Source of the DNA: a virus
Virus record (IMG/VR): IMGVR_UViG_3300017917_004240
Location: 1 to 32,709 of that record
Strand: one strand, 5' to 3'
DNA length: 32,709 nt
Part shown: one piece after another, positions 4,251-32,709 of the stretch
Layout of the letters: every line of letters begins with the position of its first letter
Numbering within the stretch: position 1 is the stretch's first letter
Notes under the pieces: model-generated
Databases searched by the model: none
What the model saw: the letters and a program-made list of their open reading frames with translations, nothing else
What the model was told of the DNA's origin: nothing
Program-made: the position numbers and the translations under genes

Positions 4251-4251
4251 C

Positions 4252-6682: not shown

Positions 6683-7659
6683 AAATATTAGTAACAGGTG
6701 CAGCGGGTTTAATTGCAAGTCATTTAGTAGATTTTTTATTAGACCAAGGACACAGCGTAGTAGGCGTAGATGATATGTCATATGGAAATATTGAAAATTT
6801 AAAAAATGCCATTCAACATAAAAATTTTAAATTTAAGAAAACGAAACTACAATTCTTAAATCTTTGGAAAGAAGAATTTGATGCAATCTATCACTTAGCG
6901 TCAATGAAAAAACCATCAAATGGTATTATAAAGTCAGTTGATGTTTTAAAAGAAAATTATCAAATGATTGAAACAGTTGTATCGGATGCAGTAAAAAATG
7001 GCTCATTTTTAATATTTACATCGACATCTGATGTATATGGTAATTCTCCGACATTTTTAGAATCTGAAGAAATTACTATCGGTCCTCCTACTAATGAACG
7101 ATATTCATATGCATTATCAAAATTACATGGCGAACAATTTATTTTTAATGAAATTCAACAATCGAATTTAAAAGGATGTGTGATTAGAGTATTCGGTTGT
7201 GCATCATGGAGGTCTAACAAAAGTTGGTCAGGCGGTCACATTCCAATGTTTATAGATAAAGCTTTGAGAGGCGAATCGATTCATATTCACGGAGATGGAA
7301 TGCAAACTAGATCAATTAGTCATGCATTAGATATTGCATATGGTTTAAGTAAATTAATACAACACATGGATTCAGTTAATAGACAAATTATTAATTTGGG
7401 TACTGATGAACAAACTACAGTACGAGAAGTTGCTGAATATATTATATCTAAAACTAATTCAAAATCTGAATTAATTTTTGATGATCGAAAACAAATATTT
7501 GGAAATTATAAAGAAATTATGAAACGATTTGCAAATACAACTAAAGCAAAAGAATTAATTAATTTTAAAATAAATTATTCAACATATCAAGTTATAGATG
7601 AAATAATTAAGGTATATAGTGATGAAAATAGCGGTTATTACTCCAGTTCGGCATATTGA
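6679..7659 (+). CDS. NAD-dependent epimerase/dehydratase (extended SDR)
   Basis: The second extended SDR of the island, 326 aa. GAAGLIASHL is the cofactor loop and GVDDMSYGN ends strand 2 with an acidic residue, as in NAD-dependent GalE-like enzymes. The active site is STSDVYGN followed by YSYALSK (Tyr-x3-Lys). GMQTRSISHALDIAYGL is the substrate-side segment. It differs strongly from the SDR at 4872, so it probably performs a different step. The coding region runs 38 bases into the next gene, the longest overlap in the operon. The C-terminal tail (SGYYSSSAY) is therefore encoded by shared DNA. Confidence 0.88.
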   Translation: MKILVTGAAGLIASHLVDFLLDQGHSVVGVDDMSYGNIENLKNAIQHKNFKFKKTKLQFLNLWKEEFDAIYHLASMKKPSNGIIKSVDVLKENYQMIETVVSDAVKNGSFLIFTSTSDVYGNSPTFLESEEITIGPPTNERYSYALSKLHGEQFIFNEIQQSNLKGCVIRVFGCASWRSNKSWSGGHIPMFIDKALRGESIHIHGDGMQTRSISHALDIAYGLSKLIQHMDSVNRQIINLGTDEQTTVREVAEYIISKTNSKSELIFDDRKQIFGNYKEIMKRFANTTKAKELINFKINYSTYQVIDEIIKVYSDENSGYYSSSAY

Positions 7660-8566
7660 TGGCGTATTAGATTTATTACATACAAAAGGGGATGTATTTT
7701 TACAAGAAACTGCATCAAAATTTGAAGTTAGAAAACTTTTATTAAAAGAAAATATTGATACTATAATTTGTAATCCAAATCAACAAACGTATATAATTGA
7801 TCGAGAATTATTAAATGGTACTAATGTAACATTAATTAATACATGTTCAACTGGCATGAATCATATTGATCAAGAGTATTGTAATTCTAATAACATTAAG
7901 ATCTATTCTTTAACTAAAGATTATGAATTGATAAAACAATTGCCTTCCACATCTGAATTAGCATTTGGATTGATGTTATCATTATTAAGAATTATTCCGG
8001 CTGCAAAACAACATGTTTCTGAATATAAATGGGACTATACTAATTTTGTAGGAAGGCAAGTTAAAGATTTGAATATTGGTATAATTGGATATGGACGATT
8101 AGGAAAAATGATGTTCGATTATTGTAATGCATTTGGTGCTAAAGTAAAGGTTTATGATCCATATGAAAAACAAAATTTTTCAGATTCATTTTTATTAAAT
8201 CATTATTCATCATTAGAACAAATATTTGAAACATCAGATGTAATTTCATTACATGTACATGTTACTAAAGAGACTAAATATTTAGTAAATCATAATCTTC
8301 TTGGATTATGCAAAAATAGTCCTTATATTATAAATACATCAAGAGGTGAAATTGTACGAGAACACGATATTGTTGAAGCGTTAGATAAAAATTTAATAGC
8401 TGGTTATGGAACTGATGTCATAGAAAATGAATTTGATGATTTAACTATGTCACCAATAATTAATGCAATGAATGATAAAAAAAATATAATAGTTACTCCA
8501 CATATCGGAGGAATGACGTTAGAAGGACAAAAAAAGGCATATATATGGGCAGTAAACAAACTTTAA
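7622..8566 (+). CDS. D-isomer-specific 2-hydroxyacid dehydrogenase
   Basis: A 314-aa protein of the PGDH/formate-dehydrogenase-like family, which oxidises or reduces 2-hydroxy acids with NAD(H). The NAD-binding loop is GIIGYGRLGKMM, followed by an acidic residue at KVYDPYE. The catalytic residues are in place: Arg in INTSRGE, Glu in DVIENEFDD and His in TPHIGG. I chose the ATG at 7622 over the adjacent GTG at 7619. The gene begins inside the preceding SDR and overlaps the CMP-sugar synthetase-like gene by 22 bases. In this position it may make or reduce a keto-acid precursor of an unusual acidic sugar (inference). Confidence 0.88.
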   Translation: MKIAVITPVRHIDGVLDLLHTKGDVFLQETASKFEVRKLLLKENIDTIICNPNQQTYIIDRELLNGTNVTLINTCSTGMNHIDQEYCNSNNIKIYSLTKDYELIKQLPSTSELAFGLMLSLLRIIPAAKQHVSEYKWDYTNFVGRQVKDLNIGIIGYGRLGKMMFDYCNAFGAKVKVYDPYEKQNFSDSFLLNHYSSLEQIFETSDVISLHVHVTKETKYLVNHNLLGLCKNSPYIINTSRGEIVREHDIVEALDKNLIAGYGTDVIENEFDDLTMSPIINAMNDKKNIIVTPHIGGMTLEGQKKAYIWAVNKL

Positions 8567-9108
8567 GGGTATTAGTAATAATACCGGCAAAATTGGATTC
8601 GATGAGACTTCAAAACAAAAATATTCAACAAATTAATGGAAGACCGATGATTGAATATTCAATTGAATATGCAAAAATAAGTAAGTATAATCCTACAATT
8701 GTAGTTTCGTCAGAAAATCCAGATGTATGGGATATTGCGTTAAAAAATAATGTATCATGGACAGCTCGTCCAGATCACCTTTTAAAGGATGCTGAAGTTA
8801 CCGATGTATACATTGATTTTTGCAGTAAAATTGAAGATGGAAAGTATGATTTAGTTGTAGCATTACAGCCAGATAATCCAAATCGTTCACATACACTAGA
8901 CGAATGTATTGATTATATGATTTCAAATAATTATGATGATTTAATTACTGTTAATCCTTCATATAAACGAAGCGGATCAGTTAGAATTTTTAAATTTAAA
9001 TATTTAAAAAATTCAATGGTTAGTAAAAGAATTGGTTGTATACAAGATGCTGCAATTGATATTCATTATTTAGATGATTTAAAACAAGTAGAACAAAAAA
9101 TAGGTTAA
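8545..9108 (+). CDS. CMP-sugar synthetase-like cytidylyltransferase (NeuA/SpsF type)
   Basis: A 187-aa nucleotidyltransferase of the acylneuraminate cytidylyltransferase fold. The N-terminal signature is VIIPAKLDSMRLQNKNI, matching the IPAR-x-S-x-R-L-x-x-KN pattern that binds CTP. GRPMIEYSIEYAK follows as in NeuA, and VALQPDNPNR stands where the family has LQPTSP. The protein is shorter than bacterial NeuA (about 220-230 aa). With the NeuB-type gene two places downstream, it probably activates a nonulosonic-acid-like sugar as a CMP derivative. Confidence 0.8.
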   Translation: MGSKQTLRVLVIIPAKLDSMRLQNKNIQQINGRPMIEYSIEYAKISKYNPTIVVSSENPDVWDIALKNNVSWTARPDHLLKDAEVTDVYIDFCSKIEDGKYDLVVALQPDNPNRSHTLDECIDYMISNNYDDLITVNPSYKRSGSVRIFKFKYLKNSMVSKRIGCIQDAAIDIHYLDDLKQVEQKIG

Positions 9109-9109
9109 T

Positions 9110-9697
9110 ATGGCAAAATTTGGAAAAGAACGATTTCCGTCTGATTATCAAAATGCAGTAGGAATGAATGCAAGTTCAATATTACACGAAAATTCAAAAG
9201 AATTAGTTAAATTGCTTAAACGGTATAATATTTTAAATTCTGATTCAAAAATCTTTGAGTTAGGAGCCGGTCCCGCTAGAAATTTGCATTATATCAATGA
9301 AGAATTTAACACTAATAACATTTATTGTAGCGATCTGTTTGCAGAAGCTTCTAAGAATAATATGTCTGAGTCAATAAAGAATATTATTACATTTTATGAA
9401 GGAGATTCGCAAGATATTATTGATAATAATATTATTAAAGATTTAGATTTGTTTTTAGTTTCAGATCATTTTATGCATTTACAATATGAAAAAGCTGATT
9501 ATGTTATCAAAATGATTTTAAAAAATTGGAATCCTAAATATATAATGTTGCGTGAACTAAAAAAAGAATTTGAAACGCCAGAACACCCTAGATTATTTCA
9601 TAATTATGATCAGTTTTTACAAAAATATGATTTAATTTTAGAAACAACTAGTAAACAAACTGATGCTTATTTTATTTGGTTATTAAAAAGAAAATAA
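9110..9697 (+). CDS. Class I SAM-dependent methyltransferase-like protein
   Basis: A 195-aa protein with the class I methyltransferase motif I (IFELGAGPARN, Glu50 onward), a following acidic strand (IYCSDLF) and an LDLFLVSDHFMHL segment at the position of the catalytic motif. The rest fits a seven-strand methyltransferase fold. It lies 1 base from each neighbour, between the CMP-sugar synthetase-like and NeuB-like genes. A sugar O- or N-methyltransferase is the natural guess. The motif is clear but the substrate is not known. Confidence 0.68.
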   Translation: MAKFGKERFPSDYQNAVGMNASSILHENSKELVKLLKRYNILNSDSKIFELGAGPARNLHYINEEFNTNNIYCSDLFAEASKNNMSESIKNIITFYEGDSQDIIDNNIIKDLDLFLVSDHFMHLQYEKADYVIKMILKNWNPKYIMLRELKKEFETPEHPRLFHNYDQFLQKYDLILETTSKQTDAYFIWLLKRK

Positions 9698-9698
9698 T

Positions 9699-10496
9699 AT
9701 GAGAATAATAGCAGAAATTGGTTGGAATCATTGCGGTGATATGAATCTAGCAAAAGAAATGATTAAAGCAGCTGCAGATAGCGGAGCTGATTATGCTAAA
9801 TTTCAAACTTGGTCTGTTTCTAGATTAAAAACAGGCGATTGGGATGTCGACGGCCGCAGGGAGATTTACGAGCAAGCTGAATTAACAAAAGAACGTCATG
9901 AAGAATTAATTTCATATTGTAAAGAAATGAATATTTCTTTTTTGTCATCAGTTTTTAGTATCGAAGATGCTAAACTATTAGTAGAACTAAAATGCAATTC
10001 AGTTAAAATACCTAGTTTTGAATCTAGAAATACTGAATTAATTAAATATTGCAATGATCATTTTGAAACAGTATTTATGTCAACAGGTACGTCGACATTA
10101 GAAGAAATTAAATACAGTATAAGTTTTTTTAATAAAGCAACATTATATTTAATGCATTGCGTTTCAGTATATCCAGGAAAATATGAAATTGCAAATCTTC
10201 CAAAAATGATTGCGTTAAAGCAAGTACATGATTTAGTTGGGTATAGTGATCATATTGAAGGAATTGAATCTGCTAAAATTGCATTAGGATTAGGTGCAGT
10301 TGTTATTGAAAAACATTTTACAATCGATAATAATCTGCCAGGCAGAGATAATAAGTTTGCAATACTTCCAAATGAATTATTTGGATTACGTAAATATATT
10401 AATTATATTCATGATATGATGATAGATCATGGAACTGATTACAATGAATTAGAACTTGATTCTAGAACAAATTATGCAGGTAGATTTAATGGATAA
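9699..10496 (+). CDS. NeuB-family nonulosonate synthase, TIM-barrel only
   Basis: A 265-aa protein with all main features of the N-acetylneuraminate synthase barrel: RIIAEIGWNHCGDMNLAKE at the start, GADYAKFQTW, FMSTGTSTLEEI, YLMHCVSVYP, GYSDHIEGIESA and VVIEKHFTIDNNLPGRDNKF. Enzymes of this family condense phosphoenolpyruvate with an N-acyl hexosamine or related sugar to form a nine-carbon acid. The usual C-terminal SAF (antifreeze-like) domain, which helps close the site in bacterial NeuB (about 340-350 aa), is absent: the stop follows the barrel, overlapped by 8 bases with the next ATG. It may form a minimal synthase or use a different substrate. Confidence 0.9.
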   Translation: MRIIAEIGWNHCGDMNLAKEMIKAAADSGADYAKFQTWSVSRLKTGDWDVDGRREIYEQAELTKERHEELISYCKEMNISFLSSVFSIEDAKLLVELKCNSVKIPSFESRNTELIKYCNDHFETVFMSTGTSTLEEIKYSISFFNKATLYLMHCVSVYPGKYEIANLPKMIALKQVHDLVGYSDHIEGIESAKIALGLGAVVIEKHFTIDNNLPGRDNKFAILPNELFGLRKYINYIHDMMIDHGTDYNELELDSRTNYAGRFNG

Positions 10497-11130
10497 AATT
10501 TCAGTTATAATTAGAAATCGCAATGAATCTGAATATATAGGTTTTGCAATTCAATCAGTTATTGATCATTTTAAAGATCCGGAAATTATTATTATGGATA
10601 ATAATTCTAATGATGATTCTATAGAAATTGTAAATTTATTTTCGATTAAAACGAATATACAAATATTCAATATTGATAATTATAGTCCCGGCAGATCTAT
10701 TAATGAAGCAGTAAAACGATGTAGTAATGATATTATTTTAATTTTATCTGCACATTCTCAGATTTATAAAATGGATTATGAATATGTTCAGTCTTGTTTA
10801 AAAAATCATGTAGCAGTATTCGGAAAACAAACTCCTATATATAGAGGTAAAAAAATAACACCTAGATATATTTGGAGTCATTTTGGATCTAAAGAAGTTA
10901 CTAATTTATTTTCAACTATTGAAGATAGATACTTTTTACACAATGCATTTTGTTTTTATACTAAAGAACATTTATTAAAGTATCCATTTAATGAAAAATT
11001 AATAGGTAAAGAAGATAGATATTGGGCTATTGATCAAGTTGAACTCGGATATTCATTTTTTTATACACCGAAAATAGAAATTAATCATTATTGGACTAGT
11101 AATGGTGCAACTTGGAAAGGCTTAGCATGA
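10489..11130 (+). CDS. GT2-type glycosyltransferase
   Basis: A 213-aa GT-A protein. ISVIIRNRNESEYIGFAIQS is the family 2 opening, EIIIMDNNSNDDS is the second strand with the acidic residues that bind the nucleotide, and SPGRSINEAVKRC is the usual loop before the donor site. ILILSAHSQI stands where relatives have a DxD motif, so the metal site is not classical. I chose the ATG at 10489, which overlaps the NeuB stop by 8 bases, over the in-frame ATGs at 10456 and 10474, which lie deeper in the neb-type gene. It ends in an ATGA overlap. Confidence 0.83.
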   Translation: MDKISVIIRNRNESEYIGFAIQSVIDHFKDPEIIIMDNNSNDDSIEIVNLFSIKTNIQIFNIDNYSPGRSINEAVKRCSNDIILILSAHSQIYKMDYEYVQSCLKNHVAVFGKQTPIYRGKKITPRYIWSHFGSKEVTNLFSTIEDRYFLHNAFCFYTKEHLLKYPFNEKLIGKEDRYWAIDQVELGYSFFYTPKIEINHYWTSNGATWKGLA

Positions 11131-11840
11131 AATTAGCAGTTTATACAGCATTATTTACAGATCATCCAGATTATTTATATGGAGATCTTATACCATATGT
11201 ACACGACAAAGATGGAATAGATTATATTGCGTTTACTAATAGTGATTATTTAGAATCTGATTTTTGGGATGTACGTAAAATGGATATATGGAGATCTGGG
11301 CGTTGGACTGCTAGAAAATGTAAAACATCTCCAGAAGAATTATTACCTGAATATGATGCATGGTTATGGATGGATAATGAAATTTATTTTACATATGATC
11401 CGCATGATTTATTTTCATTACATTTAAATGATTTTGATTTAGCAGTTCATCTTCATTGTGATCGAACGTGCTTATATCAAGAAGTAAATGAAACTATCAA
11501 TAGAAACCCGTTGCGAGATCCTAAGGAGATGATTATTAATCAAGGTTTAGATTATCAACAACGAGGATATCCAGAAAACAATGGATTATATGAAAATGGT
11601 ATATTATATCGAAGAAATAACGAATTAATTCGAAATTTTAATAAAACATGGTTTGATGAGACGTCAAAATGGAATACGGAAGATCAAATTTCAATGATGT
11701 ATTCATTATGGAAACATCCAGATGTTAAAGTTAATGGATTAAAACAAACATTTGTTTCACACAATTATAGAAATACATATTTGCCATTAACAGATCAATT
11801 TAAATGTTTACCTAGATCCAATCGATATGTCAAAAAGTAA
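11127..11840 (+). CDS. DUF616 (TOD1/MUCI70-like) glycosyltransferase-like protein
   Basis: A 237-aa protein that follows the DUF616 pattern closely: a YTALFTDHPDYL opening, IDYIAFTNSD, RWTARKCK, YDAWLWMDNEIYF (the DxD-like site), then LHCDRTCLYQEVNE, GLYENGILYRRNN and WNTEDQISMMYSLW. The family is best known from plant wall and pectin enzymes and from bacterial surface-glycan loci. The ATG at 11127 makes an ATGA overlap with the previous stop and is preferred to the TTG at 11112. It overlaps the next gene by 14 bases. I am fairly sure of the family and unsure of the sugar. Confidence 0.8.
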   Translation: MKLAVYTALFTDHPDYLYGDLIPYVHDKDGIDYIAFTNSDYLESDFWDVRKMDIWRSGRWTARKCKTSPEELLPEYDAWLWMDNEIYFTYDPHDLFSLHLNDFDLAVHLHCDRTCLYQEVNETINRNPLRDPKEMIINQGLDYQQRGYPENNGLYENGILYRRNNELIRNFNKTWFDETSKWNTEDQISMMYSLWKHPDVKVNGLKQTFVSHNYRNTYLPLTDQFKCLPRSNRYVKK

Positions 11841-12843
11841 AATATTATTATTATTTACAAATCATAGAGTTGCTGAAAAGCTATGGCCTATAATACCATT
11901 ATTATCAATTGAATATGAAATTGATTTATTTTGCGTTGGGTTATTTAGTTTAAATACACCATGGGTTGGTGATATTGATGAGCGTCTCGTTGCAATTAAT
12001 AAATACAATCAATATCTTAGTAATGTAATACAAGGGCCTGGAATTAAATTCCATGGAGATAGTATTCGCGAATCGTTGTTAAATTTTATTAACATAAATT
12101 CATATAAATTTGTAATTTATGATGATAACCGAGAAATGCAAGAATTTAATATTCCGCATTTTTATAATGAATGTAAGTATAGAAATATCAAAGTAATTGG
12201 CAATGTCCACGGAAATGAAGATATCACAAAAGATGCATCAGGCATTAGTTATGATTTTAAAATGGAATTTTATAATGGCGGCATTCCTGCAAATGACACA
12301 TTAGCTAATGTAGTAGTTCAACCCCAACATATATTAGTTATAACTAATTTCCTAGGTAACCGCGGATCTATATTTCCTATTAATTTTGATCAACGATTTG
12401 TACATGAATCTGGAATATTAGAATTATCTAAACAATTTAACTTACCGATAAAAATAAAAATAAAAACAAGACTAGATAAACCAGATTATCTTAATGATAT
12501 TTCATATATAAATAGTTTATTAGAATGTGATGTTATAACTAATTCAGAAAATATCGATGAATTAATAGCAAATTCTGCAGTAGTTATATCAGCTCCATCT
12601 ACATTATCATTTAAATCAATTCAACTAGGAATTCCTACGGTATTAATTAAAGGTTGCGGTCAAATCGGTAAATTCGAGCATTACCCGGGTCTTGTTGATT
12701 TAAACAAACAACAAATATTTGATTCTATTCAATATCAAATCGATCATGGTAAATTTAATGAATACATACAAACAACAATATCTGGAGGTGATGTATTTCA
12801 GTCATCTCAAAATTATGTTAACTATATAAAAACAATATTATGA
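11827..12843 (+). CDS. GT-B-type surface polysaccharide transferase-like protein
   Basis: A 338-aa protein with an N-terminal Rossmann start (KILLLFTNHRVAEKLWPII), a central VIGNVHGNED loop and a C-terminal segment ANSAVVISAPSTLSFKSIQLGIPTVLI. The last resembles the donor-binding region of capsule and CDP-glycerol-type GT-B transferases, where a serine-rich loop precedes an exposed helix. It has no membrane segment. Glycosyltransferase is the best reading from fold and context; UDP-GlcNAc 2-epimerase-like folds share the same pattern and are the main alternative. Confidence 0.62.
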   Translation: MSKSKILLLFTNHRVAEKLWPIIPLLSIEYEIDLFCVGLFSLNTPWVGDIDERLVAINKYNQYLSNVIQGPGIKFHGDSIRESLLNFININSYKFVIYDDNREMQEFNIPHFYNECKYRNIKVIGNVHGNEDITKDASGISYDFKMEFYNGGIPANDTLANVVVQPQHILVITNFLGNRGSIFPINFDQRFVHESGILELSKQFNLPIKIKIKTRLDKPDYLNDISYINSLLECDVITNSENIDELIANSAVVISAPSTLSFKSIQLGIPTVLIKGCGQIGKFEHYPGLVDLNKQQIFDSIQYQIDHGKFNEYIQTTISGGDVFQSSQNYVNYIKTIL

Positions 12844-13535
12844 AAATAATCTATAGAATATCAGATACAGGTTACAATAAAATAAAACCAGATTACATTA
12901 ATAATGAAGCATGTTTAAGCAATTTTTGCAACATATTTTTTGAACATATATGGGATATTCACGTTATAGCTGACAATTGTAGTGAAGATACTATTAAGAT
13001 GATTAAAAAGTACATTGACCCTATTAACATAGAAAAAGTATCTGTAGGCCATGGAGCCGGAACGTTTAATTTAGCATTAGATAAAGCAATTAAATGGGCT
13101 GATGATGAAATAGTTTATTTTGTAGAAAATGATTATTTACATAAACCATATGCTGATAAAATCATACAAGAAGGCTTTGATTTAGGAGCATCATTTGTAT
13201 CATTATATGATCATCCAGATAAATATTTAGATCCAAGTCGTGGTGGTAATCCATATTGTGAAGGCGGTGCTGAAGATACGAGAGTCTATTTATCTAAATC
13301 ATCTCATTGGAAAATTACTAATTCAACTACAATGACATTTGCTAGCAAAGTTTCAACACTTAAACGTGTTGAATCTATTCTAAGAAAACATACAATAGGT
13401 TCATATCCAAATGATTTTAAAATGTTTTTAGAACTTCGAGAACAAAATGAATTATTAATAACATCTATTCCTGGATATTCAACTCATGGTGAAACCGCGT
13501 GGCTAGCGCCATTAACAGATTGGAGTAAAATATGA
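12840..13535 (+). CDS. GT-A-type glycosyltransferase-like protein
   Basis: A 231-aa protein that starts MKIIYRISDTGYNKIK and has HVIADNCSEDTIKMIKK (nucleotide-binding strand), GHGAGTFNLALDKAI and IVYFVENDYLH, where END replaces DxD. The C-terminus has HGETAWLAPLTDW. This order agrees with a small GT2-like enzyme, although the entry strand is not the textbook sequence. ATGA overlaps on both sides. Confidence 0.68.
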   Translation: MKIIYRISDTGYNKIKPDYINNEACLSNFCNIFFEHIWDIHVIADNCSEDTIKMIKKYIDPINIEKVSVGHGAGTFNLALDKAIKWADDEIVYFVENDYLHKPYADKIIQEGFDLGASFVSLYDHPDKYLDPSRGGNPYCEGGAEDTRVYLSKSSHWKITNSTTMTFASKVSTLKRVESILRKHTIGSYPNDFKMFLELREQNELLITSIPGYSTHGETAWLAPLTDWSKI

Positions 13536-14287
13536 TATCGGTAATAATACCAACTTATAAAAGTCCTGCAATGTTAGATTTATGTTTACGTTCTGCAATT
13601 ACAGGACAGCAAAATAAAAATCAAATAATAGTTGTTGTCGATGGCTTCTATGACTTAAATAAAGATGTCTTAGAAACATGGAAAGATTCAATTGATATCT
13701 TGAACTTAGAATCTAATTTAGGTCTTTGTCGCGCCACGAATTTAGGAGTATACAATGCTAAACATGATAAGATACTAATAGTTAATGATGATAACGTATT
13801 TCCTAGATTTTGGGATACTACGTTATTAGATGATTGGAAAGATGGTACCGTTGTAACGCCCAATCAAGTCGAACCATATCCATCGATGTTTAAACAGTTT
13901 CATATTGAAGATTTAGGAACTACTACGGAATCATTTGATTTAGAAAAATTTTGGTTGTTTGACTATCATTATGCATCAGGAGATAAAAAAGAAGAAAGCG
14001 GATCAACGTTGCCTATATTTATGAACAAACTAGATTTTATACGAATCGGAGGGTGGGATGAAAATTTTGAAATGGGAATGGTAGCAGATTGGGACTTCTT
14101 TTTAAAATGTCAGTTAAGCGGATTACGAATGATTCGAACATGGAATTGCCATTTTTATCATTTTACATCTGTTTCTACTAATGGCGAAAGTCGACAACGA
14201 GCAGAACAAAACGGACATGAATATGCACGATATAAATGGGGAACTTACATAAAACATGATCCTACAACAAATTTAAAACATTTATAA
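13532..14287 (+). CDS. GT2-family glycosyltransferase
   Basis: A 251-aa family 2 enzyme with clear motifs: ISVIIPTYKSPAMLDLCLRS at the start, IIVVVDGFYD, NLGLCRATNLGV, the metal-binding segment VNDDN (Asp86-Asp87) and the acceptor-side GGWDENFEMGMVADWDFF, where the ED/DxD-like WD is typical. It is the last gene of the operon: a 32-base gap with a promoter-like element follows and the next genes are for lysis. No terminator hairpin is visible after the stop. Confidence 0.9.
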   Translation: MISVIIPTYKSPAMLDLCLRSAITGQQNKNQIIVVVDGFYDLNKDVLETWKDSIDILNLESNLGLCRATNLGVYNAKHDKILIVNDDNVFPRFWDTTLLDDWKDGTVVTPNQVEPYPSMFKQFHIEDLGTTTESFDLEKFWLFDYHYASGDKKEESGSTLPIFMNKLDFIRIGGWDENFEMGMVADWDFFLKCQLSGLRMIRTWNCHFYHFTSVSTNGESRQRAEQNGHEYARYKWGTYIKHDPTTNLKHL

Positions 14288-19837: not shown

Positions 19838-19844
19838 TATTTAT
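19837..19844 (+). promoter_or_regulatory. Candidate late promoter element ATATTTAT
   Basis: The octamer overlaps the stop codon of the preceding gene and stands 13 bases before the ATG of the lysozyme-domain gene at 19858. Confidence 0.42.
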
Positions 19845-22777: not shown

Positions 22778-23523
22778 TGATAAAATTACACGATTTAATG
22801 AATGAAGATCTGCGCCGCTGGGTGAAAGAAAAATGGACAGATCAACATGGTCGACCTTGCGGTAATGCAGAAACTAAAGGTGTTAAAAAATGTCGTCCTT
22901 CTCGTAAAGTATCTAAAGACACCCCTAAAACATGGAAATCATTTGATAAAGATGAAAAGAAGTCATTGGTAGCTCAAAAGCAAAGAGTTGGAATGGGTAA
23001 ACGAACTCCAAAAGCGGAAGCTGTTATCGACGAAGAAAAAAAAGCAAAACGCGATGCATGTTACCACAAAGTAAAAGCTCGTTATACCCGTAACGGCGGT
23101 ACATGGCCATCTGCATATGGTTCATTAGCACTTGCAGCTTGTAGAAAGCGCGGGGCTAAGAATTGGGGTAACAAATCAAAAAATGAAGAGTTAGTAAAGG
23201 AAATCATGGAAGAAATAACAATTTGTAATGGATGTGCTATTGATATGTTAGAAGATATCAAAGCAGGAAAACATGTAATTACAGAAGCCGAATATCAGGG
23301 TCGCAAAGTTCAATTAGGTAAACCAATGCGAGGTGATGTTAAAAAATTCAAAGTCTATGTTAAAAATGACAAAGGCAACGTTGTAAAAGTTAACTTCGGA
23401 GACCCTAATATGCGAATCCGTAAGAGCAATCCTGCACGTAGGCGTTCATTTAGAGCTAGGCATCGTTGTGAAACTCCTGGACCACGTTGGAAAGCACGTT
23501 ATTGGTCTTGTCGTAAATGGTGA
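22777..23523 (+). CDS. Basic three-module protein with predicted capsid-targeting N-terminus
   Basis: A 248-aa, very basic protein opening MIKLHDLMNE before Asp. It has three recurring phage modules: (1) residues about 12-75, WVKEKWTDQHGRPCG and KKCRPSRKVS; (2) about 90-135, CYHKVKARYTRNGGTWPSAY and ACRKRGAKNWG; (3) about 171-248, YQGRKVQLGKPMRGDVKKFK and a C-terminus with CETPGPRWKARYWSCRKW. Residues 167-171 read VITEA, which fits the T4 prohead protease rule, and cutting there would release module 3. Modules 1 and 3 look like those seen in proteins of T4-like marine phages. A DNA-associated internal head protein is inferred. Function of the modules is unknown. Confidence 0.72.
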   Translation: MIKLHDLMNEDLRRWVKEKWTDQHGRPCGNAETKGVKKCRPSRKVSKDTPKTWKSFDKDEKKSLVAQKQRVGMGKRTPKAEAVIDEEKKAKRDACYHKVKARYTRNGGTWPSAYGSLALAACRKRGAKNWGNKSKNEELVKEIMEEITICNGCAIDMLEDIKAGKHVITEAEYQGRKVQLGKPMRGDVKKFKVYVKNDKGNVVKVNFGDPNMRIRKSNPARRRSFRARHRCETPGPRWKARYWSCRKW

Positions 23524-23722: not shown

Positions 23723-23761
23723 ATTCGACTAGGTATATTATAATATAAAGGCCAGTCGAAT
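23723..23761 (+). promoter_or_regulatory. Promoter-operator region with nested inverted repeats before the CUB/GEVED gene
   Basis: Perfect 8-base arms ATTCGACT (23723-23730) and AGTCGAAT (23754-23761) enclose a perfect 14-base palindrome TATATTATAATATA (23734-23747) that contains a TATAAT box (23739-23744). A further half-site TTGACTG lies at 23707-23713. The right arm ends 2 bases before the ATG at 23764. This would suit a repressor operator over a promoter, or an mRNA hairpin covering the start. No TTGGAT is found at the standard 17-base distance, unlike the other three promoters. Confidence 0.5.
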
Positions 23762-23763: not shown

Positions 23764-25782
23764 ATGAAAAAATTATTACTAACGCTTATCTGCGTAATCG
23801 GGATGATTACCATAAGTATCTCTCAATGTAGCTTGTATCAAATTTACGAAAGTTTTACTAGTACATTACCTACCCAAGGTGGAACTTGGGCTCAAACTTC
23901 AATCACTTATAACACTGCATCCTTAAGAACGGGAACGCATAACCTATCTTTTAATGCAGCGGGTGATATTATCAGAACACCTCAAATTTCAAACCCCGGT
24001 GTAGTATCATTTTGGTTTAGAAGAAGTAACAGCAGTGCAACCCATGGATTTGTTGTAGAGACATCCCCAGATGGTACAACATGGACAACTAGAAATACTT
24101 ATTCAGGCACAATGTCAACTACATATGTGCAAAGAGTAGTTGATTTAACTAGTTTGGGTTTAACTAATGTATTTATTCGAGTTAGAGATACTAGAGCCTC
24201 CGGTACAACTGTATGGTATTTGGATGATTTAAGTGTTACTTCAACATCTGCATCTATTAATAAATTACTCCCAATACTAGGTGCGTGTAGCCAAACACTA
24301 AACTCAACATTAACATATACGCTATCAGATGATGGTGGACCAGCCGGACCTATGTCGACAGGTTATAGTAATAGTGTAAATAGAACAATTACATTAACAC
24401 CTTCTGATAATACAAAGAAATTGCAATTAAGTTTTAGTCAAATGGACTTGGAAACAAGTTATGATTATCTATACATCTACGACGGAGCAAATACCTCAGC
24501 ACCATTACTCGCAACACTTAATGGCACAACAATACCTAGTGCAATAACTGCAGAAAATGCTTCAGGTCAACTAACAATAAGATGGACAACTGATATATCA
24601 AATGTTGGTGCATGGGGTGGATTTTTAGCAACAATAACATCTGTTGCTGCATGTACAACTCCTACGGTTGGTGGTACTTTGGCATCCTCAAAAACAATTA
24701 CAACAGTAAATGATGCTACACTGTTAACTACATCTGGAAATGATGGTACTATTACTAAATTAGAATGGTCATATGATAACTTTACAAGTATTGCAGGAAC
24801 TATTTCAAATCCAGCTAATCCATATACAATCACAATGAATGTACAACAATCAAACATATATTTTAGAACAACATCAAAAAACGGTACTTGTCCTTCCGGT
24901 GTTTCTAATATTGTAAATGTTACATTGAAAAATGCACCAGCATATTCTTCCGGCGTTGTTGATGGCGATCACATTACGAATGTTACGTTTAGTGATATAA
25001 ATAATACTACCACAAATGATGGTGACGCATATTCTGATTTTACTTCAATAATTGGGAATGTTACAAAAGGTGAACCTTACAATTTATCAGTAACTGCAAC
25101 AAATACACTCTCACCAGGACAAGGATATGCTGCTTGGATTGATTGGAATGGTGATGCTATATTTCAAACTAGCGAAAATGTTCTATTAAAACCTACAGCA
25201 AATTCCACATCGCAATTAATTATAATACCATCTGATGCTGTTACAGGTGATGTTGTTATGCGAGTTTTATCGGTATGGAATAGTACACCTGATATTGATG
25301 CATATTATTCGTTAGGCTATGGTTATGGAGAAATAGAAGAATATACAATAAGAATTTCAGACCCAATTTCATTGCCAGTTGAACTTACTCAATTTGAAGC
25401 TGTTGCATATCCACAATGGAATGTTGTTAAATGGAATACTGCTAGTGAAAATAATTCTAGTCATTTTGATTTACAATCTAGTATAGATGGCGAAATGTGG
25501 AGAACGATAACAACAAAATTAGCAGCTGGCAACAGTACAGAGGAAATTAAATATTCTTGGATTGATTATAATAAAAACGAACTAATTTATTATAAATTAA
25601 TTCAATTTGATATTGATGGAAAATCTACCGAATATGGCCCCATTATGGTTCAAAGGGGATCTATAGATAAAGTAATTGTTAAGTATATAAATTTAATGGG
25701 GCAAGAAATAAATCCTCTAACTACGACTGGCCTTGTAATAGAAGTTTATGATGATGGATCTATAAGAAAAGTGATTCGATAA
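23764..25782 (+). CDS. Secreted CUB/GEVED-domain protein with T9SS-type C-terminus
   Basis: A 672-aa protein. A classical signal peptide (MKKLLLTLICVIGMITISIS, ending SQ) is followed by an N-terminal sandwich region (FTSTLPTQGGTWAQ, WYLDDLSVTS), a CUB-like domain with LETSYDYLYIYDGANTSAP (about residues 165-295), a GEVED domain (YAAWIDWNGDAIF, GYGEIEEYTIRI, about 385-540) and a Bacteroidota-style end: LPVELTQFEAVAYPQWNVVK, then SEN and WRTI, and a last strand set INLMGQEINPL...LVIEVYDDGSIRKVIR. The ending resembles the type A sorting domain that routes cargo through the type IX system. Expected location is the host cell surface or outside. Unusual in a phage; a host-acquired moron is likely. 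Confidence 0.75.
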   Translation: MKKLLLTLICVIGMITISISQCSLYQIYESFTSTLPTQGGTWAQTSITYNTASLRTGTHNLSFNAAGDIIRTPQISNPGVVSFWFRRSNSSATHGFVVETSPDGTTWTTRNTYSGTMSTTYVQRVVDLTSLGLTNVFIRVRDTRASGTTVWYLDDLSVTSTSASINKLLPILGACSQTLNSTLTYTLSDDGGPAGPMSTGYSNSVNRTITLTPSDNTKKLQLSFSQMDLETSYDYLYIYDGANTSAPLLATLNGTTIPSAITAENASGQLTIRWTTDISNVGAWGGFLATITSVAACTTPTVGGTLASSKTITTVNDATLLTTSGNDGTITKLEWSYDNFTSIAGTISNPANPYTITMNVQQSNIYFRTTSKNGTCPSGVSNIVNVTLKNAPAYSSGVVDGDHITNVTFSDINNTTTNDGDAYSDFTSIIGNVTKGEPYNLSVTATNTLSPGQGYAAWIDWNGDAIFQTSENVLLKPTANSTSQLIIIPSDAVTGDVVMRVLSVWNSTPDIDAYYSLGYGYGEIEEYTIRISDPISLPVELTQFEAVAYPQWNVVKWNTASENNSSHFDLQSSIDGEMWRTITTKLAAGNSTEEIKYSWIDYNKNELIYYKLIQFDIDGKSTEYGPIMVQRGSIDKVIVKYINLMGQEINPLTTTGLVIEVYDDGSIRKVIR

Positions 25783-25810
25783 TCAAAAATCTTACCCCGT
25801 TCATGAATGC

Positions 25811-25833
25811 GAGCGCTGTTAATATCAGCGCTC
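25811..25833. terminator. Hairpin between convergent genes
   Basis: Perfect 8-base arms GAGCGCTG and CAGCGCTC with a 7-base AT-rich loop, between the converging stops of the CUB/GEVED gene and the subtilisin gene. The arms are unusually G+C-rich for this window. No run of T follows directly on either strand, so it is a candidate bidirectional terminator or RNA-end stabiliser, not a textbook intrinsic terminator. Confidence 0.55.
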
Positions 25834-25880
25834 CCATTAATTTTAAATCTTCTATTTTGGCCTTGCGATTTGATTTCATC

Positions 25881-27284
25881 TTATTTTACAATCTTAGTTA
25901 TTAATACTCCGTTATCAACTACTAAATACATTCCTGCAGGTGCATATTCAATATTAATCAATTTACCTGATAAATCATATATTTGATAATTGTTTATGTT
26001 GATTGATTTTTTATTTGGTTTGCCATTATTGCCATTAACATGTCCTTGTCCTGGATTTGAATCATCAACACCATCAGCATCATTACCATGTCCGTTGTTA
26101 CCATCATCTTCTACTGGTAATCCCATTTCATATGCTATTCTAACAGCTTCTGCAGAATTCAATCTACCAGCACCAATTTTACCAATATAAGCTGTATTAA
26201 GCGAATCGATATTTGTTGCAGATATTCTTAATACAGAATCAATTTCATTGGTAGTAAGATTTGGATTAACAGATAACATCAATGCAACAGTACCGGTAAC
26301 ATAAGGAGCTGCAAATGAAGTTCCCGATGAATTAATATACCAACCAGGTGCGGCAGTTAAAGGAACATTGTGACCTGGAGCACAAATATCAACTGAAGAA
26401 TTTGTTTGGTGTCTTGTATTTGGATTGCCAATTGTTTTTTCGATATTGTCTTGAGCACCGACACTTGTTACAGCAAATACATGATTATATGCTGCAGGAT
26501 AAACCAAATTATTTGCACCACCACAAGTTGTTCCATTACCTGCAGATGCAACAATAAATGTTCCGTTTGCATACACTTCATCAATTATTAATTGCGCATA
26601 TTGATTGTAAGTGCATCCTGATGTCCAACTCAAGTTAATTACCCGAGCTCCATTGTATGAAGCTATTAATATGTCGTTATAATTCATTCTAAACAATGAA
26701 AGAGATGAATTATATCCAATAGAAGCAAGTCCTACGTTGTTGTTTGTATTACCTGCTGCTATTGTTGCCACGGCCGTACCGTGTGTGCGCGTTGCTGTGT
26801 TTGTGTTGTCATAATAAATAACCTTTCCTGTTAATTCTTCGTGATTAATATAATAATTTTGATCTGATATCGCAATATTGATTGCCGAATCGCCGGTTGT
26901 ATATGTCCAAGCTGTTTGAGCTCCAATCAAATCCAAAGCCCAATTGCCGGCAAATACTGAAGTATAATCATTAGGTAATTCCAATGTCTCATACTTAGGA
27001 GCATATTCAATACCCGATATTCCAGGCACTTTATGCATTGCTGCATATAATTCTGTTTCATTGCATGTACATTCAAATTCATATACATTTCGCAAACGTC
27101 GTTGTTTAGAATTTGGAAATGCTTTGTAAAAAACCAAATCGGCATGCAAATTTTTAATAGTTGTTTGAAATTCATTGCTCTCTCTTATTTTATCAACGTT
27201 TTCTACTGTTGCCCAAACGGCGTTTTGACTAAATGCAGCTACATTCAAAATTGCTGCTAAACTTGTTATTAAAAACTTTTTCAT
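25881..27284 (-). CDS. Subtilisin-like S8 serine protease with signal peptide and T9SS-type C-terminus
   Basis: A 467-aa secreted protease, the only gene on the minus strand. A signal peptide (KKFLITSLAAILNVAAF, ending SQ) is followed by a probable prodomain (about residues 21-105). The S8 catalytic triad is complete: IAISDQNY (Asp141), THGTAVATIAAG (His168) and SSGTSFAAPYVTG (Ser323), with ASAGNGTT (Asn250) for the oxyanion hole. A Gly/Asn/Asp-rich linker (DDGNNGHGNDADG) leads to a C-terminal beta domain: INNYQIYDLSGKLINIEYAP, then AGMYLVV and LITKIVK, typical of T9SS sorting domains. The protease would act at the cell surface or in the medium. It faces the CUB/GEVED gene, and the two probably entered together. 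Confidence 0.87.
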   Translation of the reverse strand: MKKFLITSLAAILNVAAFSQNAVWATVENVDKIRESNEFQTTIKNLHADLVFYKAFPNSKQRRLRNVYEFECTCNETELYAAMHKVPGISGIEYAPKYETLELPNDYTSVFAGNWALDLIGAQTAWTYTTGDSAINIAISDQNYYINHEELTGKVIYYDNTNTATRTHGTAVATIAAGNTNNNVGLASIGYNSSLSLFRMNYNDILIASYNGARVINLSWTSGCTYNQYAQLIIDEVYANGTFIVASAGNGTTCGGANNLVYPAAYNHVFAVTSVGAQDNIEKTIGNPNTRHQTNSSVDICAPGHNVPLTAAPGWYINSSGTSFAAPYVTGTVALMLSVNPNLTTNEIDSVLRISATNIDSLNTAYIGKIGAGRLNSAEAVRIAYEMGLPVEDDGNNGHGNDADGVDDSNPGQGHVNGNNGKPNKKSININNYQIYDLSGKLINIEYAPAGMYLVVDNGVLITKIVK

Positions 27285-27516: not shown

Positions 27517-28686
27517 ATGAAAAAAACAAAATCAATTGGCGTAGTAAAGTATACGCATTTCGGAAAACCTTACATTTCCGAATTAGGAACTGGCGATGAC
27601 ATTACCGATTTGTTCCGGCCCATTATGGTTAAACATGCAATAGAAAATGATGAAGCATTGGTATTTGATCATGAAACGGGTCGTGCTAAAAGAATTGCAT
27701 TAGATCAAATTAATCAAGAAGAAGTAATATCAACCACAGACCCACAACCAATGCCTAAACAAGAAATAGATCCAGTATTAGCATTAATTCAAAATGCACA
27801 TAAGATTAAACCTGCTAACTTGGAAATGTCTGATATCAAATGGAAGTATTTGGTTCGTTCGGCTGTTAGAGGTAAAAACATCATGATGGTTGGACCTGCA
27901 GGTTGTGGTAAGACTCAAGCCGCAAAGGAATTGCCTAAAGCAACTAATCGTCCTTTCTTTTATTTTAACTTGGGCGCAACTCAAGATCCAAGAGCAACTC
28001 TTATTGGTAATACTCATTTCAAGGATGGCGAAACTAGTTTTGATGAATCAGCATTTGTCAAAGCAATTCAAACAGAGAATGCCGTTATACTATTAGATGA
28101 GTTATCAAGAGCACATCCAGAAGCATGGAACATATTAATGACAGTTCTAGATGAGGGTCAAAGATATTTGCGTTTGGATGAAGATGTTAATTCACCAACA
28201 ATTCGCGTGGCGGCAAATGTATCCTTTATTGCTACAGCAAACATCGGTACAGAGTACACATCAACTCGAGTATTAGATAGAGCCTTAATGGATCGTTTTG
28301 AAATCATTGAAGTTGATATTTTGTCTTTATCTCAAGAAGAAGAATTGCTAACAAAACGATTTGGTGGCAAAGTATCAGGAGGATTGATTCATGCAGTAGC
28401 AGACATTGCAGATGCAACACGTAAAGAATGGAGGTCAGAAGAAGGCAAATTATCCACGATGATATCAACTCGTATGACTGTTAGGTTATGTGAATTGTTA
28501 GCAGATGGCTTTTCATTGTCAGAAGCCGCTGAGGTATCTGTATTGCCTTTCTTTGATGCATCAGGTGGTGCTGACTCAGAAAGAACTTTTGTAAAACAAA
28601 TCATCCAGAAACATATTGGAACTGAGATGCAAGATATATTCAATACGGGACAAGAAGATGCTTCTAATGAAGCAATACCGTTTTAA
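27517..28686 (+). CDS. MoxR/CobS-like AAA+ ATPase
   Basis: A 389-aa ATPase. The N-terminal 100 residues are unknown and acidic, with LGTGDDITDLF. The AAA+ module has Walker A GPAGCGKT (residues 126-133), Walker B AVILLDELSRA (Asp194, Glu195), sensor 1 SFIATANIG and an arginine finger region DRALMDRFEII. The C-terminal part with STRMTVRLCELLADG fits the MoxR/CobS lid. In bacteria CobS works with CobT to insert cobalt; in T4-like marine phages a CobS-like gene is common without cobalt metabolism, more likely as a chaperone-like ATPase for a partner VWA protein. It forms a pair with the VWA gene downstream. Confidence 0.88.
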   Translation: MKKTKSIGVVKYTHFGKPYISELGTGDDITDLFRPIMVKHAIENDEALVFDHETGRAKRIALDQINQEEVISTTDPQPMPKQEIDPVLALIQNAHKIKPANLEMSDIKWKYLVRSAVRGKNIMMVGPAGCGKTQAAKELPKATNRPFFYFNLGATQDPRATLIGNTHFKDGETSFDESAFVKAIQTENAVILLDELSRAHPEAWNILMTVLDEGQRYLRLDEDVNSPTIRVAANVSFIATANIGTEYTSTRVLDRALMDRFEIIEVDILSLSQEEELLTKRFGGKVSGGLIHAVADIADATRKEWRSEEGKLSTMISTRMTVRLCELLADGFSLSEAAEVSVLPFFDASGGADSERTFVKQIIQKHIGTEMQDIFNTGQEDASNEAIPF

Positions 28687-28698
28687 TTTTTCATAGCT

Positions 28699-28736
28699 CA
28701 AAGAAGGGGTAGTAACAATTGTTCTACCTCTTTTTT
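28699..28736 (+). terminator. Intrinsic terminator after the cobS-like gene
   Basis: The stem arms GGTAG and CTACC are joined by a short AACAATTGTT palindrome and extended outward by A-T and G-T pairs (an AAAGAAGG-type left side), then a run of six T. This is the best intrinsic terminator in the window. It separates the cobS-like unit from the promoter of the cobT-like gene 12 bases downstream. Confidence 0.8.
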
Positions 28737-28747
28737 ACATTATTCGG

Positions 28748-28776
28748 TTGGATATTACTGAATATTTTCATATAAT
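28748..28776 (+). promoter_or_regulatory. Sigma70-like promoter TTGGAT-N17-TATAAT (cobT-like gene)
   Basis: TTGGAT at 28748-28753, TATAAT at 28771-28776, spacer 17. The leader before the ATG at 28793 would be about 8-12 bases. An in-frame TTG that opens the reading frame at 28748 is part of the -35 box itself, which is why the ATG at 28793 is taken as the start. Confidence 0.75.
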
Positions 28777-28792
28777 ATATAAAAATAAAGAG

Positions 28793-30919
28793 ATGAAAGA
28801 TCCTAAAGACACCCGCAAAACATATTCATTACCGCGAGCATCTAGCTTTTGGTTAGATAAAGACTTTGATGTTAATTTTAAACGCGAAGATGGCGGCGTT
28901 GATTTAATGAAATTAGCGGCAGCACAAAGAGCTATAGGCAATTTTGTTAATATTGTTACAGGTAAACAAATTCCAGTTATATTTCAAAGTGCTGATAATA
29001 GTTATACCGATGGTGAGCGTGTTGTTATTGGAACTAAATTAGATGGTAAACATTTTGATCCGGCAGTAGGATTGGCTTTACATGAAGGTTCACATATTGC
29101 ATTAACGGATTTTAAATTATTTAAAGCGCCTAATGGTAGTTATACTACTTATATAGAAAATACCGAGTTTGCAAACATCATAAGAATGCAAGGCATCGAT
29201 CCGGAAATGAAAATGAAGCATGACGATTTCATGTTGATCAAAGATTTATTGAATTGGATCGAAGATCGTCGCATCGACTTTCATATTTATACAACCGCAC
29301 CAGGTTACCGAAATTATTATGAAGCTATGTATAATCAATACTTTAATGATAAAGTTATTGACAAAGCATTGTTGTCAGGAGAAAAATGCAATGAGCTTCG
29401 TGATGATTATATGTTTCATATTATTAATTTTACTAATCCTAATAGAAAATTAGATTCCTTGAAGGAGTTGAAACATATATGGTCAGTAATTGATTTAAAA
29501 AATATTAACAGATTAAAAAATACAACAGATGCTTTAATAGTAGCGTGTCAAGTTTATAAAATTATTGATACGGCTACAGCAGCAGCAGAACAAGCTAAAC
29601 AAGATGAAGAGGATGAAACTAATTCGGATGATACTAAACCAGGTGCTGAAGGGCAAGGTAAAGGACAAGGTGGAGGTGGTGGCGAAGGCAAAGGTAGTAG
29701 TCCTGGCGATGGCGAGTTTGAAGATTCAGAATCCGATAATGAAGATGAAGAATCAAATAGTGAAGATGCCGATTCAGAATCAGAATCAGGATTATCTGAT
29801 AAAGAATTAGAAAAATTACAAAAAGCAATTGATAAGCAACGTGAATTCTTAAATGGTGATTTAAAGAAAACAGGTCGTGTAACAAAAGCTCAAGCATCAA
29901 CCATTAATGCATTGCGAGAATCGGGTACGGAAGTTAGAACAATTTCAATGGATCCGACAGCAGGACTAATGAATAATTTAGATACAATTGTTATTAAAAA
30001 ATTGACACCTGGTATTATTTGTTCGCTACCTAGATTGTTTGAACAAGAAGCTGATAAATTCATTAATGGTACAAGAAATTATCATAATGAATTAGACCGC
30101 GGAACTTCTTATGCTAGAAATATTGCAACAAATGATGCTGCAGTTACAAAAGGTATCATTTTAGGCAAACAATTGGGTCGCAAATTGCAAATACGAGATG
30201 CCGAAAAGACTCTTAAAACAACACGTTTGCAAACAGGTAAAATTGATAAGCGTTTGATTTCACAATTAGGATATGATAATGCAAATGTATTTCATAGAAT
30301 TGTTACGGATAGGTTTAAGAATTATTTTATTCACATTTCAATTGACGCATCTGGTTCAATGTCAGGTACTAAATTTGCAAATGCAATAACATCTGCAGTA
30401 GCGGTAGCACAAGCCGCATCAATGACTACCGGTATACGCGTACAAATATCTTTGCGTGGCACTTCAACATTGAGTGGCGGTACTGATAAAACCGTAACTC
30501 TATATGTATATGATTCAGCTCAGGATAAAATGAGTAAAATCAAATCATTGTTCAAATATTTAAGAGTATTTGGAGTTACGCCAGAAGGATTAGCATTTAA
30601 AAGTATTGAAAAGGATATGAAGAAGGATGCTAAAGGAGATGAATGCATTTTTATAAATTATTCAGATGGCGAACCAAGTGGTATAGATGGTGCTGGATAT
30701 CGATATGATGGTGTAGAATATACAAGAAAGGTTGTAAATGACTTCAAAGCTATGGGTATCAATGTTATTTCATATTTTATCTATCAAGGTTATATGTATG
30801 AAAGCACGCGAGAAAACTTTAGAAGAATGTATGGACCTGATGCTCAATTCATTGATCCAACCAACATGAATCAAGTATCCAAAACTGTTAATCAGAAATT
30901 TTTGGAATTAGCGGAATGA
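28793..30919 (+). CDS. CobT-like von Willebrand factor A protein with HExxH site
   Basis: A 708-aa protein, partner type of the ATPase upstream. The N-terminal region has LALHEGSHIAL (HEGSH, residues 97-101), an HExxH motif like that seen in some VWA/CobT-like proteins. A long acidic, Gly- and Ser-rich linker (GQGKGQGGGGGEGKG, SESDNEDEE, ESESG) is typical of CobT. The C-terminal VWA domain carries the metal-ion-dependent site DASGSMS (518-524) and a later INYSDGEPSG. The likely role is a cofactor-dependent chaperone or remodelling complex with the AAA+ protein; whether the HExxH site is proteolytic is not known. Confidence 0.85.
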   Translation: MKDPKDTRKTYSLPRASSFWLDKDFDVNFKREDGGVDLMKLAAAQRAIGNFVNIVTGKQIPVIFQSADNSYTDGERVVIGTKLDGKHFDPAVGLALHEGSHIALTDFKLFKAPNGSYTTYIENTEFANIIRMQGIDPEMKMKHDDFMLIKDLLNWIEDRRIDFHIYTTAPGYRNYYEAMYNQYFNDKVIDKALLSGEKCNELRDDYMFHIINFTNPNRKLDSLKELKHIWSVIDLKNINRLKNTTDALIVACQVYKIIDTATAAAEQAKQDEEDETNSDDTKPGAEGQGKGQGGGGGEGKGSSPGDGEFEDSESDNEDEESNSEDADSESESGLSDKELEKLQKAIDKQREFLNGDLKKTGRVTKAQASTINALRESGTEVRTISMDPTAGLMNNLDTIVIKKLTPGIICSLPRLFEQEADKFINGTRNYHNELDRGTSYARNIATNDAAVTKGIILGKQLGRKLQIRDAEKTLKTTRLQTGKIDKRLISQLGYDNANVFHRIVTDRFKNYFIHISIDASGSMSGTKFANAITSAVAVAQAASMTTGIRVQISLRGTSTLSGGTDKTVTLYVYDSAQDKMSKIKSLFKYLRVFGVTPEGLAFKSIEKDMKKDAKGDECIFINYSDGEPSGIDGAGYRYDGVEYTRKVVNDFKAMGINVISYFIYQGYMYESTRENFRRMYGPDAQFIDPTNMNQVSKTVNQKFLELAE

Positions 30920-31678: not shown

Positions 31679-32709
31679 ATGAAAAAAGAAATCATTTTAG
31701 GCGCTGAAGGCCGTTTAAAATTAAAAAATGGAATTGATATTTTAGCTCGAGCAGTTGCATCAACATTAGGTCCAAAGGGAAGAAATGTAGTAATTGGTAA
31801 AGCATTCGGGTCACCCCATGTTACCAAAGATGGGGTGTCTGTTGCTAAACAAGTTGAGTTGAAAGATCCAATTGAAAACCTAGGTGCTCAAATGGTAAAA
31901 GAAGTTGCATCTAAAACAGCGGATAATGCCGGAGATGGTACAACCACAGCAACAGTATTAGCACAAGCTCTTGTAACTGCAGGACTTAAAAATGTTGCAG
32001 CAGGATCTAATCCAATTGATTTGAAACGAGGAATGGATAAAGCGGTAGGAGTTGTAGTTGATGAATTGAAAAACATGTCTCAAGAAGTTGGTAATGATTA
32101 TGACAAAATCAAACAAGTAGGATCTATCTCTGCTAACAATGATGAAACCATCGGGGGCTTAATTGCTGAAGCAATGAAAGTGGTTGGTAAAGATGGAGTA
32201 ATTACAGTTGAAGAAGCAAAAGGTACTGAAACAGAAATCAAGACTGTTGAAGGTATGCAATTTGATAGAGGTTATCTATCTCCATATTTTGTAACCAATT
32301 CAGAAAAGTTAACTTGTGAAATGGATAATCCATTGATTCTTATTGTGGATAAGAAAATATCTTCAATGAAAGAGTTGCTACCCGTATTAGAACAAGTAGT
32401 TCAGACTGGACAGTCATTGGTAATCATTGCAGAAGATGTTGATGGAGATGCTCTAGGAACTCTAGTAGTGAATCGCATCAGAGGTGCATTGAAAATTGTT
32501 GCAGTGAAGGCCCCGGGATTCGGTGATAAACGCAAAGAAATGTTGGAAGACATTGCAGTATTAACCGGCGGTGAAGTTATTTCAGATGAGCGTGGTACTA
32601 AATTATCAGAAGCAACATTGGATTCATTGGGTAGTGCCGAGAAGATTGAAATTAGCAAAGACAAGACTACTATTATTGGTGGACATGGCGAAGTCGCAGA
32701 GATTCAAAC
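31679..32709 (+). CDS. groEL: GroEL chaperonin (3' partial)
   Basis: The gene runs off the window after 343 codons (bacterial GroEL has about 545). The protein begins [20 protein letters not shown] and follows type I chaperonins throughout: [12 protein letters not shown] and [12 protein letters not shown] (ATP site), [33 protein letters not shown] (catalytic-site Asp), [13 protein letters not shown], then [29 protein letters not shown] and [20 protein letters not shown]. It is nearest to Bacteroidota GroEL by eye. No groES lies in front of it; the gene immediately upstream encodes a GIY-YIG endonuclease. It would fold phage proteins, perhaps with host GroES. Some jumbo phages carry such genes. 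Confidence 0.93.

Follow-up and report, generated by a model that had tools for sequence, protein, structure and literature searches.

A phage-encoded CUB/GEVED protein and a linked S8 protease as probable cargo of the type IX secretion system of a Bacteroidota host

Introduction

Phage-encoded cargo of the type IX secretion system (T9SS) is itself already known (Cryophage 2020, PMC7468147). The Cryophage cargo is of type A, it is highly variable between near-identical phages and a role in exclusion has been proposed for it (PMC7468147). Similarly, in crAss-like phages, T9SS-tagged open reading frames (ORFs) lie beside BACON proteins (PMC6949934). As for the sorting signal, the last 22 residues of the type A domain (motifs D and E) suffice for GFP export in P. 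gingivalis (PMC10202324, PMC5445135), and later structural work has stressed the intact fold and the loop beta3-beta4 (PMC11285876).

Here we describe two genes, P1 and P2, that both lie within a 32,709-base virus record (the window, i.e., the whole stretch of DNA that was analysed). The source is a large virus whose hosts are aquatic bacteria. An initial annotation had proposed that P1, a CUB/GEVED protein, and P2, an S8 protease, are routed through the T9SS of the host. What this locus adds is a minimal tag, a swappable slot and a linked protease; in the open-access literature, outside which most subscription papers fall, we found no description of a minimal tag, its restriction to one family, a slot at gp23 or the linkage to a protease.

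Results

Two secreted proteins in convergent orientation

P1 consists of a signal peptide, a beta domain, CUB, GEVED, an Ig-like 'LPVEL' domain and a short tag, in that order:

23764..25782, plus strand: P1, modular secreted protein of 672 aa (ORF, Pfam, tail model)
23764..23823, plus strand: P1 signal peptide of 20 aa, then Gln (Q-rule; from the sequence)
24409..24603, plus strand: P1 CUB match, residues 216-280 (Pfam, E=1.1e-6)
25126..25350, plus strand: P1 GEVED match, residues 455-529 (Pfam, E=8.6e-13)
25372..25653, plus strand: P1 Ig-like 'LPVEL' domain, starting LPVELTQF, directly before the sorting signal
25663..25779, plus strand: P1 short C-terminal tag DKVIVKYINLMGQEINPLTTTGLVIEVYDDGSIRKVIR, a conserved C-terminus

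The ORF, its strand, the Pfam domains and the Gln after the cleavage site all agree with the initial description of a CUB/GEVED protein with a Bacteroidota-type signal peptide. The 'LPVEL' Ig-like domain is common to phage and host cargo, in which it is immediately N-terminal of the sorting signal. In an AlphaFold model of a P1 tail construct (pLDDT 89) the tail strands are contiguous with the Ig-like domain, and the full-length P1 model was too weak for use (pLDDT 68). A PDB sequence search with the tail profile gave a best E of 0.17, a PDB fold search of the tail returned nothing beyond generic Ig/FnIII-like folds, all with E above 0.001, and no solved sorting domain was among the structure matches listed. 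The GenBank phage search with P1 retrieved two ~640-kb uncultured phages only, the match being limited to the tail region. In these phages, L280 (LR745206.1, 634,780 bases) and LR756502.1 (642,428 bases), the proteins related to the Ig-like domain and tail of P1 are 35-36% identical, and huge phages of more than 630 kb may therefore carry cargo of this kind as well.

P2 is a subtilase encoded on the opposite strand:

25881..27284, minus strand: P2, S8 (subtilase) protease of 467 aa (ORF; Pfam Peptidase_S8, E=1.6e-28)
27228..27284, minus strand: P2 signal peptide of 19 aa, then Gln (from the sequence)
26208..26882, minus strand: P2 S8 catalytic domain, with motifs SDQN (D141), HGT (H168), AGNG (N250) and GTSFAAP (S323)
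26016..26111, minus strand: P2 Gly/Asn-rich linker DGNNGHGND..., common to phage relatives and the host homologue L253
25884..26003, minus strand: P2 short tag at the C-terminus (residues 428-467), which contains PAGMYLVV and KIVK and aligns with the C-terminal half of type A domains in hosts

The catalytic triad is intact, and the Asp, His, Asn and Ser motifs of peptidase family S8 are all present. The GenBank phage search with P2 returned distant Bacillus phage subtilases. Chromosomal homologues in Crocinitomicaceae are 49-59% identical over the prodomain and catalytic domain, and those scored have complete type A domains (TIGR04183, 42-67 bits). Phage P2 copies form a single group in the tree (91/97), which adjoins the host proteins L240/L241/L246 under midpoint rooting and with modest support. 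Host homologues had been suggested as a means of dating a transfer; with the phage copies grouping apart from the host copies, a recent host-to-phage transfer of the protease is unsupported and was rejected. As judged from the tree, P2 has long been a phage lineage and is not a gene newly taken from a host.

Two further features lie between and in front of these genes:

25811..25833, no strand assigned: GC-rich hairpin between convergent P1 and P2 (-17.7 kcal/mol; z -4.0 to -5.1)
23723..23761, no strand assigned: perfect inverted repeat with 8-bp arms ATTCGACT...AGTCGAAT and an A/T core, just 5' of P1

The convergent arrangement of P1 and P2 around a G+C-rich hairpin was thus as first described, and the hairpin is probably a terminator. 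The repeat in front of P1 is also real (chance expectation 0), but the promoter role given to it was not upheld: promoter-like matches in the scan were at the shuffled level (24 vs 22.9) and in L027, a syntenic relative, no such repeat was seen 5' of its P1 homologue, so the palindrome was rejected as a conserved promoter. A different motif, TATTTATTA, is found ~24-26 nt 5' of cargo starts in 40/50 cases, against 88/405 controls. Within the window it occurs at 19838 and 22016, ahead of the tail lysozyme gene and gene 22028, and since ordinary window genes are preceded by the same motif it was rejected as cargo-specific. A more general function, as a late promoter in these phages, is possible.

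Genomic context

P1 and P2 are surrounded by phage-type genes, namely exonuclease, endolysin, tail lysozyme, HNH, CobS/CobT, GIY-YIG endonuclease and GroEL, of which HNH and GIY-YIG are homing endonucleases. P1 in the window lineage has DUF5872 on one side and CobS on the other, and the order DUF5872-P1-CobS is common to L027/L154, L026, L157 and L189, all of which are without P2; P2 is therefore an addition in the window lineage. It is also the only convincing minus-strand gene in the window, as first noted, the remaining minus-strand ORFs lying opposite plus-strand genes. The proposal that the protease is an acquired moron stands locally, in that P1 is followed by CobS with no protease in four syntenic contigs, but not more broadly, as P2 belongs to an old phage lineage and its relatives, wherever a flank exists, adjoin a tagged protein in tandem, convergent or divergent orientation. 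This constant association suggests that P2 and the tagged protein are functionally linked.

Several neighbouring genes deserve a brief description. The C-terminus of the DUF5872 protein (23350-23523) is Arg-rich (NPARRRSFRARHRC...), a feature common to cyanophage, Pelagibacter phage and Roseobacter phage proteins. At 27517-30919 there is an AAA and VWA pair that is CobS/CobT-like, whose CobS shares 55% identity with the CobS of Microcystis phage Mel-JY01, and a phage-encoded GroEL gene (31679-32707), ~60% identical to the GroEL of Bacteroides phages, ends at the record end. The region 1528-14287 (~12.8 kb) contains glycosyltransferase, nucleotide-sugar epimerase and methyltransferase-type genes, and its G+C is mostly 0.25-0.30 compared with 0.31-0.38 elsewhere in the window. 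The G+C drop together with these gene types suggests an imported glycan gene cluster in the phage. Surface glycan is often the anchor of T9SS cargo, and a link of this cluster to P1 and P2 is thus possible.

A payload position behind the capsid gene in T4-like relatives

The 32.7-kb window fragment has no Gp23-type major capsid gene, which is found on contig G006 of the syntenic relative L026 (E=8.6e-74). Among the related contigs, terminase was found on 10/16 and Gp23 above cut-off on 8/13 of those searched, with Gp23 E-values down to 8.6e-74 and TerL also present, and cargo-like genes are therefore encoded on contigs with phage hallmark genes. In a large group of T4-like relatives, a tagged gene, or a P2 homologue and then a tagged gene, is located just downstream of gp23, and the neighbourhood of the cargo in these phages is one of late genes. 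The distance between cargo and gp23 was at most 1.5 kb for 68/79 gp23 ORFs, the cargo being on the downstream side every time, in a count that includes redundant contigs and loci selected for carrying cargo. When reading started from gp23 and took in the best 80 gp23 loci, 11 of the 68 loci that extended 700 bases or more downstream had a complete tag ORF within 3 kb, and at least four further loci had truncated or protease cargo; the cargo is thus an optional occupant of the position behind gp23.

Three pairs of phages illustrate that bodies and tails recombine. L023 and L182 have gp23 that is 99.3% identical and tails at 71%, with undetectable similarity between the bodies; L160 and L180 have tails that are 99.3% identical on unrelated bodies; and L119 and L005 share bodies at 97.5% identity with tails at 65%. 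Bodies are exchanged between phages with near-identical capsids, and the tail is retained.

Short C-terminal tags and curated T9SS models

At ~40 residues, the P1 and P2 tails are half of a normal T9SS sorting domain. The tag was C-terminal in 112/112 ORFs of the first set, and the tail motifs NxxGQ...G...DG are nearly invariant. When compared with motifs D and E, the P1 tag has G-L-V-I-E-V and RKVIR and no PxGxY, and the P2 tag has PAGMYLVV, which is PxGxYVV-like, and a terminal KIVK that is KxxxK in relatives (KKIYK).

The search with sorting-domain profiles proposed in the initial annotation failed as worded: PF18962 had no match in the window, TIGR04183 scored P2 at 7.6 bits vs a cut-off of 23 and gave nothing for P1, the type C model NF033708 matched neither P1, P2 nor any of 57 short-tag tails, and overall the curated T9SS models matched 0/57 of these tails. 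The likeness of the C-termini to a T9SS sorting domain is therefore partial, as both tails are of half length with no curated match, but the P2 tail aligns with the C-terminal half of the host type A domain (hhalign 93%, E 3e-7). The P1 tail was not significant in hhalign against the canonical type A domain or against the P2 tail.

Full-length relatives of P1 and P2, tails included, are present in many viral contigs. In one of these phage relatives, L021, the P1 homologue (65% identical) and the P2 homologue (64% identical) both end in type A domains, with PF18962 scores of 25.7 and 27.8 bits respectively (cut-off 27), and the protease is type A by the curated model TIGR04183 (26 bits). Following the Ig-like domain, phage proteins had 59 short tags and 1 canonical domain, and host proteins had 57 canonical domains, 44 short tags and 42 other tails; among the examples listed of the latter, many look like divergent sorting domains. 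Phage Ig-tag tails cluster apart from host Ig-tag tails in the tree, and both these and the phage protease look like long-standing phage genes and not like recent transfers.

Signal peptides and host range of the tag

The N-termini of P1 (MKKLLLTLICVIGMITISIS, then Q) and P2 (MKKFLITSLAAILNVAAFS, then Q) are consistent with the Bacteroidetes Q-rule, so the signal peptides were as annotated, ending before Gln, and both proteins have the Sec signal peptide expected of T9SS type A cargo. Using a simple hydrophobicity rule of our own, signal peptides were called in 90/93 phage tag proteins, all with Q after the hydrophobic stretch, compared with 21/357 other long ORFs on the same contigs, of which 19 are the P2 protease. 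In the family to which L038 belongs, 64/120 genomes had the P1 tag, compared with 1/296 across the phylum, namely the query genome itself. PorU was above cut-off in 12/12 host genomes searched, and the tag was present in 11 of these. As the tag is restricted to one host family, its distribution suggests that the host is most likely a Crocinitomicaceae-type (Fluviicola-like) bacterium.

Discussion

The overall best explanation, and one that we consider probable on the sequences compared here, is that P1 and P2 are phage payloads exported by the T9SS of a Bacteroidota host. This routing is supported by the same bodies ending in canonical type A domains in relatives (L021), by tail replacement after a shared Ig-like domain, by a family-restricted tag in T9SS-positive hosts and by the signal peptides, and the initial proposal of it stands on these grounds but not on the model test that it had named. 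P1 and P2 would enter the periplasm through Sec, the signal peptide being cut before Gln, after which the tag would present the equivalent of the last type A strands (motifs D and E) to the host T9SS. The system would then take both proteins through the outer membrane, presumably with processing by PorU, and release them at the surface or into the medium, where P2 would act as a protease outside the cell and P1 as a multi-domain binding protein (CUB, GEVED, Ig-like). We consider export to the surface likely and infer its purpose. Outside the cell, the proteins might remodel the surface, exclude rival phages or free progeny from debris, each of which would fit, and remodelling of the surface late in infection, for rival-phage exclusion or progeny release from debris, is the most likely reading, if a tentative one. 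It is somewhat more credible, although still short of an even chance, that T4-like phages of Crocinitomicaceae-type bacteria reserve a slot behind the capsid gene for payloads, where unrelated secreted bodies replace one another on a constant minimal tag, and that this tag is a distinct family-specific T9SS class, common to phage and host, missed by annotation.

The nearest competing explanation, which we regard as unlikely, is that the tag, instead of being a reduced type A signal, is a separate lineage-specific T9SS signal class with its own shuttle or adaptor. The P1 tag does have its own motif and no significant type A profile match, it is limited to a single host family in which canonical domains are in use as well, and PMC12618676 reports different shuttles reading different signals; however, the P2 tail is clearly derived from type A and P1 and P2 switch jointly to canonical tails in L021. 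Rather less likely still is secretion by Sec alone, whereby P1 and P2 stay periplasmic or leave at lysis and the tails are functionless decayed domains or Ig-like caps. This reading would agree with the tail strands being contiguous with the Ig-like domain in the AlphaFold model, with no T9SS model scoring on the tails and with the non-significant match of the P1 tail to the canonical domain, but near-invariant NxxGQ...G...DG motifs are unexpected from decay, and the tail is both highly conserved across phages with unrelated bodies and kept in host genomes as a family-specific C-terminus.

It is very improbable that P1 and its relatives are Hoc-like decorations of the capsid, i.e., Ig-like proteins encoded beside gp23 that coat the virion. 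The position of the gene just downstream of gp23 in many relatives, and the Ig-like and carbohydrate-binding-like domains, would suit this role, yet 90/93 of the proteins have signal peptides that would divert them from capsid assembly, cellular secreted proteins also contain this Ig-like domain and tag, and the window lineage has the gene flanked by DUF5872 and CobS. A phage contig is an unusual place for secreted genes of Bacteroidota type, and it had been asked whether this stretch is host DNA. A host origin is contradicted by the phage genes in the window (endolysin, tail lysozyme, CobS/CobT, exonuclease and the HNH and GIY-YIG homing endonucleases), by viral contigs that are syntenic on either side of P1 and by Gp23 (to E=8.6e-74) and TerL on related contigs, so host DNA mis-binned as viral is scarcely conceivable.

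If export through the host T9SS is correct, many T4-like phages would reprogramme the surface of the infected Bacteroidota cell, and the payloads would be changing more rapidly than the gene for the capsid. As natural examples, the short tags would provide a direct test of whether the last two sorting-domain strands suffice for T9SS export, and they would reveal phage and host cargo that escapes annotation by models.

With regard to known systems, the tags share the C-terminal position of the type A domain (PF18962/TIGR04183), and the P2 tag aligns to its C-terminal half, with PxGxY-like and terminal basic residues, but they are half the length, are without the YPNP half, fall below the model cut-offs and are without the intact fold and loop beta3-beta4 of sorting domains (PMC11285876). 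Crocinitomicaceae S8 proteases (e.g., L240, L241) are 49-59% identical to P2 and have the same prodomain and catalytic domain, but are longer (565-781 aa), carrying additional repeats as well as a full type A domain. P. gingivalis phages also encode proteins with Bacteroidota-type signal peptides ending before Gln, whereas T9SS is absent from that account (PMC10367356). In crAss-like phages, T9SS sorting domains are likewise encoded by ORFs close to the head genes (PMC6949934), but these ORFs belong to another phage group, have other bodies and recognisable domains, and were described with no family-level analysis. The Cryophage is similar in that phage proteins are proposed to use the host T9SS and superinfection exclusion is suggested in both cases (PMC7468147). 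However, the Cryophage is a 76-kb Bacteroidetes phage whose cargo has recognisable type A domains and enzyme bodies, whereas here the relatives are T4-like, the ~40-residue tags are below the curated models, an S8 protease is linked and the slot is behind gp23.
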